NCBI RefSeq assembly: GCF_000150955.2
Contig: NC_011683.1
Coordinates: 682,001-746,000, forward strand
Reading direction: 5' to 3'
From: Phaeodactylum tricornutum CCAP 1055/1
Lineage: Eukaryota; Bacillariophyta; Bacillariophyceae; Surirellales; Neidiaceae
DNA: 64,000 bases
Both the position numbers and the translations under genes were made by a program. Below are positions 20,814-57,290 of this stretch, piece by piece; the stretch's first letter is position 1; every line of letters begins with the position of its first letter. The notes below the pieces were generated by a model. The model saw nothing but the letters and a program-made list of their open reading frames with translations. It was not told the origin of the DNA and did not search any database.

Positions 20814-21901
20814 ATGTCGCGATTCATCCTTGCCTTAACTCTGCTAGCTTACACAGCGAGCGCTTTTGCACCCGTCACGACATCGACTACGAAGGAATCC
20901 CGGATCCAATGTGAGATGTTGAACCGCCGCCAGGCGCTCGGTCTGGCGTTTGCCGGTCTCGTGGGGGGCTGCCTTCCTGAAGAAGCCAACGCTCTCGCCA
21001 ACCCAGCGCTGGAAACGTTCAAGGCTCGCAAAAATACCAAAGGTGCCTTTGTTCCGGGTAAGTTGCCGTGAGCGTGTTTTCTCTGAAGTCTTGTCGGAAA
21101 CCCAGGCTTTGAAAGAAAACCTCCAAAGTATGTGCGTGATTTCGTCAATAACAGAAGCCACACAGTCTAGCAAGCGTTTGCCTTTTCTGGTCCTGTCGTA
21201 GCTATTGAACGTTTTGTTTGAATCGCAATACGTCGGCCAGTGCCTTTTTTGTAGAGACAGTTCGTGGCGTGTGCTTTGTTTGGACTGCCTTCATTGACTT
21301 GTTCCATCCCTCCGTTCGATCATACTTAGGTAAGGGCTTGCGTCATCACGAATCCTTCGACAACATGGTGGCGGTAAATCCTGCATTGGAAACATTCAAG
21401 GCCCGTAAAAACACGAAAGGTACCTTTATTCCGAGCAAGGGTCTTCGAGAGCACGAATCCTTCGACAACATGGTGGCCGTAAATCCTGCATTGGAAACAT
21501 TCAAGGCCCGTAAAAACACGAAAGGTACCTTTATTCCGGGCAAGGGTCTTCGAGAGCACGAATCCTTTGACAGTTTGATGGCCGTCAATCCCGCCTTGGA
21601 GACGTTCAAGGCCCGTAAAAACACGAAAGGTACCTTTATTCCGGGCAAGGGTCTTCGAGAGCACGAATCCTTTGACAGTTTGATGGCCGTCAATCCCGCC
21701 TTGGAGACGTTCAAGGCCCGTAAAAACACGAAAGGTACCTTCATTCCAGGCAAGGGCCTTCGAGAGCACGAATCCTTTGACAGTTTGATGGCCGTCAATC
21801 CCGCCTTGGAGACGTTCAAGGCCCGTAAAAACACGAAAGGTACCTTTATTCCGGGCAAAGGTTTGCGTCTGAAGGAATCGTTGGAAAATTTGATGGGCTA
21901 A
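20814..21901 (+). CDS. Thylakoid-lumen repeat protein, six 35-residue repeats
   Basis: Exon 1 is 20814-21057, the intron 21058-21329 (272 nt), exon 2 21330-21901; 271 residues. The signal peptide ends in ASAFAP, the classic diatom plastid pre-sequence. A twin-arginine signal follows (NRRQALGLAFAGLVGG ... ANA), so passage into the thylakoid lumen by the Tat route is likely. The mature protein is almost wholly a repeat of NPALETFKARKNTKG, then (T/A)F(I/V)P(G/S)KGLR(E)HESFD(S/N)(L/M)(M/V)AV. There are six copies, the first in exon 1, and it ends in LKESLENLMG. The protein is basic, with no Cys and no known catalytic motif. I do not recognise the family; a role on lumenal photosystem surfaces is a guess. 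Confidence 0.8.
21345..21870 (+). repeat. 105-bp in-frame tandem repeat (five copies in exon 2)
   Basis: Period 105 bases, coding for 35 residues. The last three units are almost identical at the DNA level (for example 21541 onward against 21646 onward). Earlier units differ at scattered sites, including SKG for GKG and NMV for SLM. This fits recent expansion or gene conversion from the 3' side. Confidence 0.9.
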
Positions 21902-49686: not shown

Positions 49687-50607
49687 GGAATGAGATCAGG
49701 GAAAGGTTATGTCGTGCGGACAGTGAACCCAATCAGAAACGTTTGGTACAAGATTGACGAACTTAACTGGAAACAAATCCAACTAGTAGAGACTTCAAGC
49801 CCTAAACAATACCCTTTCGAACATTAATACCAGGGGCATGATAAAATGCTATGTTTAACAATGATGTTGACTGCAACGACTGAACCGTTCCCAGCTCGCT
49901 GCCCGAACAACAACATTTGGTGGACCCCTGTTGGAGCCCCTTAGTCTTCATCATTGGCACGGGTAGGATGGCGTACTCTGTAAGTGGCTTCAATGCTAAT
50001 AGGGCGCGATAAAATCACAGGAAGCATCCTTTTGATATCTGTTCGTGAACTTTTCTGCTCTGTAGCTTAAATTAGTATAAGTAGTAATAATGGTTGGATG
50101 ATAATTTACTGAAACTTGTATTTATATAGAGTCTACTTTTATTTAATGAATTTTCTGAAACGAAGGGCTATAGTATATGATCGGTCATTCTGAATGTGAA
50201 GACTAAAGGTATTGCCTGTTCTTTGAATCTTCCTCGAATATCCAAACTTCTTCCAAAAGCGTCATAGAAAAGGACATAGTGAAAATGCGGCAATGCTTCG
50301 AATTTATTGGAGGACGCTGGCAGAGCCTTCTTGAATTTCCCAATGGGTTTCATTGCACCCAATCCCATTCTTTCTCTCATGTCCCTCTCTTCGTTGGCGC
50401 CTACGCAAAAGAGTGAAGATACAATACTCACGAGGCGTTTTCTCTCCTGGCACGATACATCAGACTGGCACGATACAACTGACTACTCAGCCACTACCAT
50501 ATAGCAATACTCCGTGTTACCGACAAAACGCTCAGCTTTCCAAATATTTTTCTTGTTCTCCACAAGCAGATCACCAAGGGATTTCCATTTATCATTGTGG
50601 GCCGACC
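49687..50607. other. Intergenic region upstream of the first TPR gene
   Basis: AT-rich (50040-50170). The TPR frame stays open upstream without ATG. Minus-strand frames lack features. Confidence 0.45.
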
Positions 50608-51540
50608 ATGTTACCCTTTTCGAGAGACAATATTGAACAGGATCAGGTATTCCTAAGCCGATGGTTGGTCTCAAGCCAGTCGAACCTCAACGAAATCGGG
50701 AAACGAGCATCGACGGACGCGTCCGTTGACACTAAGGGAAGTACTGCAGATACGAGCGAATGCTCTCAGTCCTTTGATGACACCATCTCTGAGGTGTCCT
50801 GCGAACTGGGGATTTGTTTCGCGTTGCAGTTGTCCGTGTCCGACTTTGCGGAAGCCGAATTTCACTCCAGCGCCACGATTGGCTCACCAGAGTCGCTGCA
50901 CGAACACCAAGCTTATTCCACCACTTGTTCTACAAATCACAAAAAGCAGGAAACAGAAGACCGCTCTACTTTCACATTCGAGCAGCAGCTTGCTCATGGC
51001 GTGGCAGCCATGCAAGCCAGTAAATTTCAATGTGCTGTGGCTTTTTTTGAACGAGCATCAGACGAGACCAACGGAGTTCCACGCGGTGAAAGAATACCAC
51101 TTCGCCGGGCCAGAGCGCTTCACCTCGTTTCCTTGGCAGCCTCACAATTAAAAAACCTCGATTTGGCTCATAACGCAGCCCAGGAATCTTACCTGATCCG
51201 TCTCCAATCCTACGGACCACTTCATATTGATACGATTGCCTCATTCAGTAACCTCGGCTACATCTATATTGAACTAAATGAAGTTGGAAAGGCCGCATGG
51301 TGCCTGGCTCAAGTGCTCAAGGCACTTCGCGCAGTATTTGGCTACGAGCACGAAAGTGTCGGAACCACGGCGACCACATTAGCCGCCATTTATTTGCGGC
51401 TAGAGCGACCCGAACAGGCCAAGCGCTGCTACCTATATGCTTTGGAAACGTACCGAGCGCTGGGCTGGGATAAAACACGTGACGGGCTCGAAGAGGAGCT
51501 CTATAAGTTGGGGTTGAGCGAAACTCGTGTGGATCTGTAG
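50608..51540 (+). CDS. TPR protein (kinesin-light-chain-like), paralogue A, 310 aa
   Basis: Single exon from the ATG at 50608. An acidic Ser/Thr-rich N-terminal third leads to tandem TPR-like helices from about 130: EQQLAHGVAAMQASKFQCAVAFFERASD, RARALHLVSLAASQLKNLDLAHNAAQESY, GPLHIDTIASFSNLGYIYIELNEVGKAAW, HESVGTTATTLAAIYLRLERPEQAKRCYLYALE. It ends EEELYKLGLSETRVDL. The gene at 54284 encodes a protein of exactly the same length with the same GPLHIDTI core and the same ending, so the two are duplicates. The 42-residue repeat pitch and GPLHIDT motif recall kinesin light chain. Partner unknown; the strictly kept SETRVDL end could be a docking motif. Confidence 0.75.
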   Translation: MLPFSRDNIEQDQVFLSRWLVSSQSNLNEIGKRASTDASVDTKGSTADTSECSQSFDDTISEVSCELGICFALQLSVSDFAEAEFHSSATIGSPESLHEHQAYSTTCSTNHKKQETEDRSTFTFEQQLAHGVAAMQASKFQCAVAFFERASDETNGVPRGERIPLRRARALHLVSLAASQLKNLDLAHNAAQESYLIRLQSYGPLHIDTIASFSNLGYIYIELNEVGKAAWCLAQVLKALRAVFGYEHESVGTTATTLAAIYLRLERPEQAKRCYLYALETYRALGWDKTRDGLEEELYKLGLSETRVDL

Positions 51541-53889: not shown

Positions 53890-54283
53890 GTGACTTATTG
53901 AAATAACTGGCAAGTAGAATATATTCATCATGCAATATACTAAGCTCCGACTAGCAGATGTAGCCGATCCCAAAGCTAAAGTTGCCACATCGAATGGATG
54001 ATTAGATAGTTTAAGAACGTCGTAGCTTTGGGCCTATGAAAACGACCCAATCTAATTACCAAGGGCATGACTCGGAGAATATCCATGGGTACCGCATAAA
54101 AGTCATTTCGACGGGCGGGACTGTTTGTTTAACACCCTTGATGACCATCATCCGAATGTTTGGTTCTTCGCGGAAATCGGGTCGACAGATCACAGTTTGG
54201 AGGCCAAGACAGAGGACTGGGGCAGAATCCGTGTTGTTTGCATATACTAATGCTTGCCACAAGTGCTAACTCTCAAATCCTCA
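53890..54283. other. Intergenic region
   Basis: Upstream of TPR paralogue B. Nothing recognised. Confidence 0.45.
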
Positions 54284-55216
54284 ATGAACTACATTCCAGA
54301 CAGTATGATTCCTGCTGACCGAAAGGATCTATGTTCCGGTACTCTGTCAAAGAAGCCAGCCTTTGGTAGAACCCGTGGGCTAGAAGAGCAACCAATGAAA
54401 TCCGACCGATCCCTTGTCTCTAAGTTGACCTTCGCCTTCGCCTCAAAGAATTCACTGGACTCAACAGAAACCTTACTAACTCATATGGGAGAAGACACAT
54501 CGGATGTTTCGTTTTTGGAAGAAGAGGAATTCGACTTACGCACTGCGATCGGGCAGCCTAATGCGGGCGAACCGGCTACACGGAGGAAACAGGCCAAATT
54601 CTGGAGGAAAAAAACCCAGCTACACTTGGCACAATACGGAACAAAAAGCAGGAAACTGGCAATTAGTTTCATGAATCTTGGTCTGGCAGAGTTTGAGAGA
54701 GGAAACGCAGACGCCGCAGTCAATGCTCTGGCCACATCCGCTAGTATTTTTCAAAATCTTGCCACGGATACTCGTCTGGGCTACGCCATGAGCCTGCATT
54801 TTATCTCTCTTGCCGGCCTGGCTTGCGGCAAAATCAGCATTGCCAAAGATGCGATTGAAGAGTGCTACAAAATCAGACTCGTAGAGCTAGGGCCCCTTCA
54901 TATTGACACTATTGATTCATACTGCCAAATTGGGTACATCTACATCTATACACGGCAATTCACTCTTGCGATGTCAACGTTATCTGAAGGTTTCAAAGTT
55001 ATGCGAGCGGTCTTTGACGACAGTAATGAGAAGATTGTCGACATCGCGACAGAAATCGGCACGCTCTGCGTACAGCTGGGCGAAAAACCTCGCGCCCAAT
55101 GGTACTTCAACTTCGCTTTGCGGTCATGTCATTCATTGCACTTGTGGCAGAAAGCAGCCAGCCTCGAAGAGCAACTCTATAAATATGGGTTGAGCGAGAC
55201 GAGAGTGGATCTTTAG
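54284..55216 (+). CDS. TPR protein (kinesin-light-chain-like), paralogue B, 310 aa
   Basis: Duplicate of the gene at 50608, equal in length and in the same orientation. The N-terminal third is diverged. TPR-like helices start near 105 (THLAQYGTKSRKLAISFMNLGLAEFERGNADAAVNALATSAS by pattern; LGYAMSLHFISLAGLACGKISIAKDAIEECYKI). Then come the shared core GPLHIDTIDSYCQIGYIYIYTRQFTLAM and the shared end LEEQLYKYGLSETRVDL. Divergence in the middle is high while GPLHIDTI and SETRVDL are kept, so these carry the selected function. The start ATG at 54284 gives the length match to paralogue A. Role unknown. Confidence 0.75.
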   Translation: MNYIPDSMIPADRKDLCSGTLSKKPAFGRTRGLEEQPMKSDRSLVSKLTFAFASKNSLDSTETLLTHMGEDTSDVSFLEEEEFDLRTAIGQPNAGEPATRRKQAKFWRKKTQLHLAQYGTKSRKLAISFMNLGLAEFERGNADAAVNALATSASIFQNLATDTRLGYAMSLHFISLAGLACGKISIAKDAIEECYKIRLVELGPLHIDTIDSYCQIGYIYIYTRQFTLAMSTLSEGFKVMRAVFDDSNEKIVDIATEIGTLCVQLGEKPRAQWYFNFALRSCHSLHLWQKAASLEEQLYKYGLSETRVDL

Positions 55217-55853: not shown

Positions 55854-56796
55854 AGCTTAGCCCAACTAGCCAAATCAGCAAAATGCTGTCAGCTGTACTC
55901 AATCGCTGGCCACCAAATTGGTTGGGTGTATTGGCATTGGCAATAACACCTATGATGATGCAGTCTTGATCAGATTTCCGTCGGCGAAGAAATTAAAAAG
56001 CGAGTGAAATACATCAGGGCAAGTCGTTTGATTCCGCTGTCGCGAAATGCCGTCAACGTCTCGAACAAAGCTGGCGTTGCTACAAGAGTGTATTTCGAGC
56101 CCGCTTTCTATAACGGCAACATCAGGATGCGGCCAGAGACGAATTGTTGCGGAATGTGACTTCCGTCATTCCTCCTAGTAGAATGGTGCATGGGGTTCTT
56201 ACTTGCCCTCCGTTCAAAGGCTGCGCTAATGTCCCTCTGCATGTTTTATTGTCTACATCTGACAGCTTTTGTAAAGCTCTGATGAAGTGTACCTCCAGTC
56301 GGGCAGTAGTTTCGTCCTATGGCTTGTTTCATGTTAGTCTACTGTAATCTCCGCTTATTAAGTGGTGTGTACTGTCGCGGCACCCAGCAAGGACGATGAC
56401 GCCCAAACCTCATGCAGCCGTACGATATTATTCGCACCAAAACGATACCCGCTTGGCGGTATGGAAGCTTGGAGCAACAATACTTGACCTACGCGGATCA
56501 ATTGCCATACCCCTAAAACTGCCACGTCTATTGCAATCAACTGTCGACAACAGCACCAGGTTTGTAACGGTATGAAAGCGGGAACAACATCAGATTATAG
56601 AGTAGCAGATGTGCTCCTAATATGCTACCCACGCTTTTCCGTGATCCTTTTATCCACAAAAATGCACTGGGTGCATATTTCCATATTTTATTGAATGCAA
56701 CGACTTGTTGCTACCCCGACAACTCCACGATTCTAGTGACTGTAAACGAGAAACCACGCATCTATTCAATATATAAGTTTATATAATTAAATTTAG
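55854..56796. other. Gene-poor interval
   Basis: Short frames on both strands only, no motif or signal peptide. AT-rich toward 56760-56820. A GACTGTAAA copy (minus strand) lies at 56738-56746, about 85 bases before the tRNA. Confidence 0.5.
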
Positions 56797-56822
56797 GCAA
56801 TTTTGTTAGCATCTGGTAAATT

Positions 56823-56907
56823 TCGAATGGTCACCCGTTCGATCCGGGTCTGGCGCTTCGCCGGCGAGCAGCGCTAGTAGCTCAGTGGTAGAGCGTTCGA
56901 TTGCAGA
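56823..56907 (+). tRNA. Circularly permuted tRNA-Cys (anticodon GCA)
   Basis: The 3' half comes first: anticodon-stem strand TCGAA (56823-56827), variable TGGTC, T-arm ACCCG-TTCGATC-CGGGT (56833-56849), acceptor strand CTGGCGC (56850-56856) and discriminator T (56857). A 13-nt spacer (56858-56870, containing the palindrome TCGCCGGCGA) follows. Then the 5' half: acceptor GCGCTAG (56871-56877), TA, D-arm GCTC-AGTGGTA-GAGC, G, and TTCGA with loop TTGCAGA (to 56907). Rejoined, it is a 72-nt cloverleaf with all stems paired (one G-U in the acceptor) and U73, the Cys identity base. The leader TAGCAT (56807-56812) is the exact complement of the trailer ATGCTA (56908-56913), and leader CTGGTAA can pair with the anticodon loop, as tRNA introns do. 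The join lies near 37/38. Confidence 0.9.
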
Positions 56908-56992
56908 ATGCTAGATTTTTGTTTTTGTCATCAGTCAGCAGAGAGCGTTCGATTGCAGAATGCTAGATTTTTGTTTTTGTCATCAGTCAGCA
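56891..56992 (+). repeat. 52-bp tandem duplication covering the end of the permuted tRNA gene
   Basis: Bases 56891-56940 recur exactly at 56943-56992 (period 52). The unit holds the 3' strand of the D-stem, the anticodon arm, the trailer complement and the T-run terminators. The second copy lacks an acceptor and D-arm start, so it is a non-functional fragment. Identity over 50 bases suggests a recent event. Confidence 0.92.
56916..56926 (+). terminator. RNA polymerase III terminator of the permuted tRNA
   Basis: TTTTTGTTTTT directly after the trailer helix, eight bases past the 5' half. This places the transcript end beyond the 5' half, as a permuted gene requires. Duplicated downstream with the 52-bp repeat. 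Confidence 0.7.
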
Positions 56993-57290
56993 GCATCTCC
57001 CTAAGGCTACTGCGAGTTTCGTCAATGTTAGGATAAGTGCCTAGCGCACAGTCAGAGATTGTGCCTACTTTTTGTGTGTCCCCACCCTCAAATTGGCCTG
57101 CCTACCAATGCTTAGGTAACATTACCCTAAACTGTTGCACAAAGAATGAGTCTGGGTATCTTCTATTACCAAGCGCATCCCTCTCTTTTCAAAAATTGTG
57201 TACAAACAGCGGTAATTGACTGACTATGAGGAGAAGCATCAACAAGCCTATCTAGCAGATTTCATTGTGTATATACAAGCACCGAGCTGT
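56993..57290. other. Intergenic region
   Basis: Between the tRNA duplication and the deaminase stop. Nothing recognised. Confidence 0.5.

Follow-up and report, generated by a model that had tools for sequence, protein, structure and literature searches.

Evidence for a circularly permuted tRNA-Cys(GCA) gene in the nuclear DNA of a probable plastid-bearing alga

Thirty-four permuted tRNA genes, belonging to one red alga, four green algae, a green-derived nucleomorph and one archaeon, are tabulated in a 2014 review (PMC3978253), and Cys(GCA) is permuted in three of the four green algae of that table. The type II Cys(GCA) genes have spacers of 26 in Ostreococcus lucimarinus, 38 in O. tauri and 12 in Micromonas pusilla (Maruyama et al. 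2010, as given in PMC3978253). Maturation of permuted tRNAs via a circular RNA was shown in Cyanidioschyzon merolae (Soma et al. 2007, as given in PMC3978253), and circular intermediates are described in both red and green algae (PMC3978253). Permuted tRNAs have also been found in two of four chlorarachniophyte nucleomorphs (PMC4494063) and, according to a 2025 paper, in the green alga Auxenochlorella. An earlier note on the present DNA had stated that the permuted order and the circular intermediate are known in C. merolae, some green algae and nucleomorphs. A search of the open-access literature, which leaves aside most subscription papers and the 2010 survey of photosynthetic eukaryotes, gave no report of a permuted tRNA in a diatom, and the word "diatom" is absent from the text of the review PMC3978253. 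Permuted tRNA genes are an already known class, and it is probably the lineage of the case described below that is new.

The window, that is, the whole stretch of 64,000 nucleotides that was analysed, contains at 56807-56926 a locus laid out as leader arm, 10 nt, 3' half of a tRNA, spacer, 5' half, trailer arm and two T-runs (Table 1). Inspection of the sequence confirmed the gene order that the earlier note had described, with a complete 3' half and, after it in the same orientation, a complete 5' half, and its coordinates and letters agreed with ours, as they did for the 13-nt spacer between the acceptor ends and for a T-run after the trailer. The leader TAGCAT (56807-56812) and the trailer ATGCTA (56908-56913), which had been given as exact complements, are indeed so. 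When the two halves were rejoined, they formed a tRNA of 72 nt whose acceptor, D, anticodon and T stems have seven, four, five and five pairs, respectively. All 21 cloverleaf pairs were standard, one of them being G-U, and 22 of the 22 conserved tRNA positions that were compared, U73 included, fitted. ARAGORN identified the rejoined halves as tRNA-Cys(gca) with a score of 122.0, which was the same with or without CCA and at either of the two possible junctions. The proposed 72-nt cloverleaf with its stems, GCA anticodon and U73 was upheld by pairing and by score. Two ordinary tRNAs of a locus from a viral contig (L001) scored 114.1 and 120.2 with the same program, below the rejoined halves.

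Table 1. Coordinates of the features at the permuted tRNA-Cys(GCA) locus and in its flanks, numbered from the first letter of the window
Feature	Positions	Strand	Basis or remark
TATA-like stretch (TATATAAGTT at 56770, TATATAATTA at 56780)	56770-56789	+	17 to 36 nt upstream of leader helix
Leader arm of outer helix, UUAGCAU	56806-56812	+	pairs with 56908-56914, outermost pair U-G
Leader segment pairing with anticodon-loop positions 32-37	56813-56819	+	constrained fold; G56816 bulged
3-nt bulge AUU adjoining anticodon stem, likely splice site	56820-56822	+	constrained fold
tRNA-Cys 3' half (positions 39-73), comprising T arm, 3' strand of acceptor stem and U73	56823-56857	+	
B-box-like T-loop sequence GTTCGATCC, 5' of A box	56837-56845	+	sequence; likeness to box consensus
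13-nt intervening spacer TCGCCGGCGAGCA, closes acceptor stem	56858-56870	+	
tRNA-Cys 5' half, positions 1-37 plus A56907	56871-56907	+	
A-box-like sequence TAGCTCAGTGGT	56878-56889	+	sequence; likeness to box consensus
Anticodon GCA	56903-56905	+	
Trailer arm of outer helix, AUGCUAG	56908-56914	+	unconstrained and constrained folds
T-runs TTTTTGTTTTT, likely pol III terminator	56916-56926	+	runs 56916-56920 and 56922-56926
Second exact copy of 56890-56941	56942-56993	+	D stem to anticodon loop, trailer, T-runs and 15 more bases

Compared by tabulated features, the locus shares with the genes of O. lucimarinus, O. tauri and M. pusilla the isoacceptor, the type II arrangement (37/38), the lack of a further intron and the short spacer; however, Ostreococcus and Micromonas are green algae, whereas the window looks like that of an alga with a red-derived plastid. 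The 13-nt spacer is a short intervening sequence as in type II permuted genes and lies within the reported range of 1-74. An A+T-rich upstream region, noted for some green-algal permuted genes (PMC3978253), is present here too. An extra 5' half lies downstream of the permuted tRNA-Cys of O. lucimarinus (PMC3978253), whereas the downstream repeat found here is a 52-bp tandem duplication. The likeness to C. merolae consists of the 3' half coming first, a TATA-like sequence upstream and a T-stretch downstream (Soma et al. 2007, as given in PMC3978253), but the junctions of that alga are at several positions and Cys is found in none of its 11 tabulated genes (PMC3978253). The tRNA-Ser genes of chlorarachniophyte nucleomorphs are of type II in B. 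natans, as here, but they differ in their green origin, in coding for tRNA-Ser and, in B. natans, in having 5-nt spacers (PMC3978253, PMC4494063).

ARAGORN found no ordinary tRNA in the window as it stands, nor any when introns of up to 3000 nt were allowed, showing that the ordinary or intron-bearing order, with the 5' half first, is absent, and Rfam gave no matches in the window at the gathering score. This was as expected from the claim that standard tRNA scans miss a gene of this kind. Each 200-base stretch of the window was then doubled, at a step of 40, so that a permuted gene would appear as an intron-bearing one, and ARAGORN was run on the doubled stretches. The scan detected one locus only, the present one, in three overlapping stretches and with a score of 111.8. 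As a chance control, the same doubled scan was applied to order-1 Markov sequences of 64 kb each, counting as a false match anything tRNA-like, permuted or not. There were no raw matches in 30 sequences; 300 sequences gave 61, with a top score of 104.2 among the 10 of the 61 listed; and 400 sequences (25.6 Mb in total) gave 50 raw matches at about 23 distinct loci, with a top score of 106.3. None of the matches in the 400 sequences reached 111.8 or had its break at 38, and one was named Cys. As a positive control, the Cys and Gln tRNAs of L001 were permuted by script at 37/38 and set in the window background. They were named correctly in 81 of 100 cases (43/50 for Cys and 38/50 for Gln), the other 19 receiving another name, and their scores ran from 106.6 to 111.7, all 100 being above 106.3. 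The margin between true and false scores is small for the weaker control tRNAs; the present locus scores above all the false matches and all the positive controls.

The B-box-like sequence of the locus lies upstream of the A-box-like sequence. This order has been argued to be unfit for an internal promoter, and in such genes a TATA-like sequence upstream and a T-stretch downstream are probably the promoter and the terminator (PMC3978253). Both signals, as looked for in a type II gene, were found on the flanks of the locus. The TATA-like stretch, judged by its letters and place, is likely to be an external pol III promoter; the 41-nt segment around it (56760-56800) is 85% A+T, a content reached by 0.016% of the 41-mers of the window, and has 2 of the 16 TATAWA motifs that the window's + strand contains. 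That strand also carries 91 T-runs of at least five bases, so one such run alone is common.

The unconstrained minimum-energy fold contained the leader/trailer helix with its seven pairs as well as pairing of the leader CUG with positions 35-37. The fold of 56800-56920 was matched by 4 of 200 shuffles (z -2.59). For 56795-56925 the unconstrained minimum was -45.7 kcal/mol, in which the leader/trailer helix was kept and the tRNA body was not a cloverleaf; when the cloverleaf and six leader/trailer pairs were enforced, the energy was -41.9 kcal/mol. This constrained fold pairs the leader CUG (56813-56815) with 56904-56906 and the leader UAA (56817-56819) with 56901-56903, bringing position 32 against A56819, and adds a bulged A56907, a bulged G56816 and the 3-nt bulge AUU. 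The minimum for the rejoined tRNA was also non-cloverleaf (-29.3 vs -24.0 for the cloverleaf), and 19 of 200 shuffles folded as well as the 85-nt circle body (z -1.33). The predicted energies, in short, favour no cloverleaf over other folds. An exact 6-bp Watson-Crick match occurred in 631 of 200000 random flank pairs, or in 6558 of 200000 if G-U was allowed, and an energy at least as good as that of the leader/trailer duplex was reached by 3611 of 20000 random pairs from the window and by 225 of 20000 shuffled flanks. The pairing of leader and trailer alone is modest evidence, only modestly better than chance, and the duplex energy was dropped as proof of a splice motif because it was unexceptional against random stretches of the window. 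No homologous locus was found in searches of viral and prokaryote contigs, collections not meant for eukaryotes, and hence there was no covariation.

A bulge-helix motif at the 37/38 junction, as looked for in a type II gene, was obtained with the cloverleaf enforced, but the whole motif is not the unconstrained minimum. The predicted motif places the likely cuts 3' of G56906 and 5' of U56822, which would put U at position 38; the motif resembles the bulge-helix used at 37/38 by the eukaryotic tRNA splicing endonuclease (PMC3978253). Junctions at 56907/56823 (A38) and at 56906/56822 (U38) both gave 72 nt and equal ARAGORN scores. A38 is the usual base in tRNA, and U38 would be unusual. The join at 56907/56823, which had been proposed previously, stands as one of two options of equal length, but the constrained fold favours 56906/56822, one base off, and this canonical 37/38 junction is in our model the most likely one. 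With the cut placed by the 37/38 rule, U56822 is likely to be position 38 of the mature tRNA; A56907, depending on the junction, is position 38 or the first trailer base to be removed.

We consider it highly probable that the locus represents a nuclear tRNA-Cys(GCA) gene in circularly permuted form, of type II (37/38), whose product would be matured via a circular intermediate. This reading is favoured by the ARAGORN score of 122.0, by the complete sets of standard pairs and conserved positions, by a doubled-scan score of 111.8 against 106.3, by the leader/trailer helix, by the flanking signals and by a sub-threshold Rfam match (YrlA) that has its arms in the same order; it is weakened by the non-cloverleaf minima, the modest pairing of leader and trailer, the unusual U38 and a possible ordinary tRNA-Cys gene elsewhere. 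The permuted tRNA-Cys(GCA) put forward in the earlier note is supported by the anatomy, the scores, the controls and the likeness to the tabulated type II genes. Transcription by RNA polymerase III, directed by the TATA-like stretch, would run through the leader, the 3' half, the spacer, the 5' half and the trailer and end at the T-runs. The transcript could fold into a tRNA with the acceptor end closed by the 13-nt spacer and the anticodon loop open, while the leader and the trailer may pair with each other and with anticodon bases to give the bulge-helix splice motif. Cleavage by the tRNA splicing endonuclease would follow, 3' of G37 (56906) and 5' of U38 (56822), and a tRNA ligase would seal the two ends to give a circle; the occurrence of Trl1-type ligase homologs in diatoms (PMC4090602) was counted in favour of this reading. 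By analogy with known cases, RNase P and tRNase Z would excise the spacer and CCA would be added afterwards. The product would be a normal 72-nt tRNA-Cys plus CCA, presumably used in translation.

In the region 56890-56993 a 52-bp unit occurs twice, head to tail and letter for letter the same; this feature, absent from the earlier note, may reflect a very recent duplication or an assembly slip. Since the exact unit starts within the D arm and includes the trailer and the T-runs, the duplication looks like a later local event and not like the relic of a duplication of the whole gene, and it bears on how permuted loci rearrange. The anticodon-stem sequence GTTCGATTGC, present at 56895-56904 and 56947-56956, resembles a B box, and the duplication puts the second of these B-box-like sequences 57 nt downstream of the A-box-like sequence. 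A distance of 57 nt is an ordinary spacing between A and B boxes.

An exact tandem duplication inside the locus suggests recent rearrangement, as might be seen in a dead permuted copy, where the arrangement is real, the tRNA is no longer made and the cell relies on an ordinary tRNA-Cys gene at another place. Decay should bring mismatches, however, and the stems, the conserved positions and the promoter-like and terminator-like signals are all intact, which makes such a copy improbable. An exact duplication abutting the 5' half is also a typical place for assembly slips, so that an ordinary tRNA-Cys, perhaps intron-bearing or tandem, could have been misjoined in a way that makes its halves look inverted. 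We regard this as very unlikely, because the leader and the trailer are complementary in the order found and the A+T-rich, TATA-like region and the T-runs lie on the proper outer sides; besides, three 15-base words taken from the halves occur once each in the window (both strands), and a 13-base word drawn from the end of the 5' half is found twice, its second copy lying in the duplicated piece.

The sole Rfam match at E<=5 in 56700-57050 (cmscan) was to YrlA (RF02553), a bacterial Y RNA-like, non-coding tRNA mimic of permuted form that would act as a protein tether instead of a tRNA; it covers 56806-56917 with 37.0 bits and an E value of 9.9e-07, and its alignment places the T arm before the D arm, as at the locus, YrlA having a basal stem and a tRNA-like domain (PMC8394870). 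The shared arm order explains this match, and YrlA was rejected as the identity of the locus, being barely conceivable with a score far under the Rfam gathering score of 69 bits, with a whole tRNA present here that has a full anticodon arm, a Cys anticodon and U73, and with neighbouring genes that look eukaryotic whereas YrlA is described as bacterial (PMC8394870).

A pattern search for similar permuted tRNA-Cys loci gave no match in viral contigs or in prokaryote genome contigs. In the viral contigs, an exact search with 30 nt of the 5' half was likewise empty, and the adenosine deaminase-like protein encoded nearby had no relative there. These misses carry little weight, because the collections were not meant to contain eukaryotes. 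A looser pattern search of the viral contigs gave one match, L001, which was rejected as a permuted gene because by ARAGORN the place has one tRNA-Cys and one tRNA-Gln, both ordinary; the match extends over this tRNA-Cys and the T-loop-like end of the tRNA-like stretch before it.

If a permuted tRNA gene is present in an alga whose complex plastid is red-derived, the known range of these genes becomes wider, and permutation would seem to have arisen more than once among eukaryotes that use external pol III promoters. The same isoacceptor would have been hit in distant lineages, and the tRNA counts of such genomes may be incomplete. A further proposal, that a working permuted tRNA-Cys(GCA) is the main or only cysteine tRNA gene of the nuclear genome of a stramenopile, a diatom or a relative, and arose independently of the green-algal cases, is offered tentatively, at somewhat under an even chance. 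If this proposal is true, tRNA-Cys is a repeated target of permutation, and ordinary annotation would miss an essential tRNA in the lineage.

The genomic setting was assessed by comparing 10 of the 60 listed open reading frames of the window with Pfam. Matches were obtained to adenosine deaminase, an SRP54-type GTPase, fasciclin, two TPR proteins and a proteasome subunit, and also to a fused aspartate kinase-homoserine dehydrogenase, an HMGL-like enzyme, MutL and a subtilase. The proteasome frame had its best matches to beta type-10 and type-7 chains. The SRP54-type GTPase frame, which we take to be cpFtsY-like, has a presequence with VLAFVPS. An ASAFAP motif marks plastid proteins in diatoms and in other algae whose plastids are red-derived, and VLAFVPS appears ASAFAP-like. 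This gene content and the presequence indicate that the window is a eukaryotic nuclear region, as had been claimed and as the proteasome and other Pfam matches bear out, and that it probably belongs to a plastid-bearing alga. A diatom, the source named in the earlier note, is a plausible candidate, in keeping with both the genes and the presequence. Elsewhere in the window, a coding tandem repeat of 105 bp at 21347-21862 (about 4.9 copies, 95% match) encodes the 35-residue protein repeat HESFDSLMAVNPALETFKARKNTKGTFIPGKGLRE. The TPR frames at 50335-51540 and 54251-55216, 2.7 kb apart and sharing the terminal residues GLSETRVDL, are apparently local paralogs with the fasciclin-domain frame between them.
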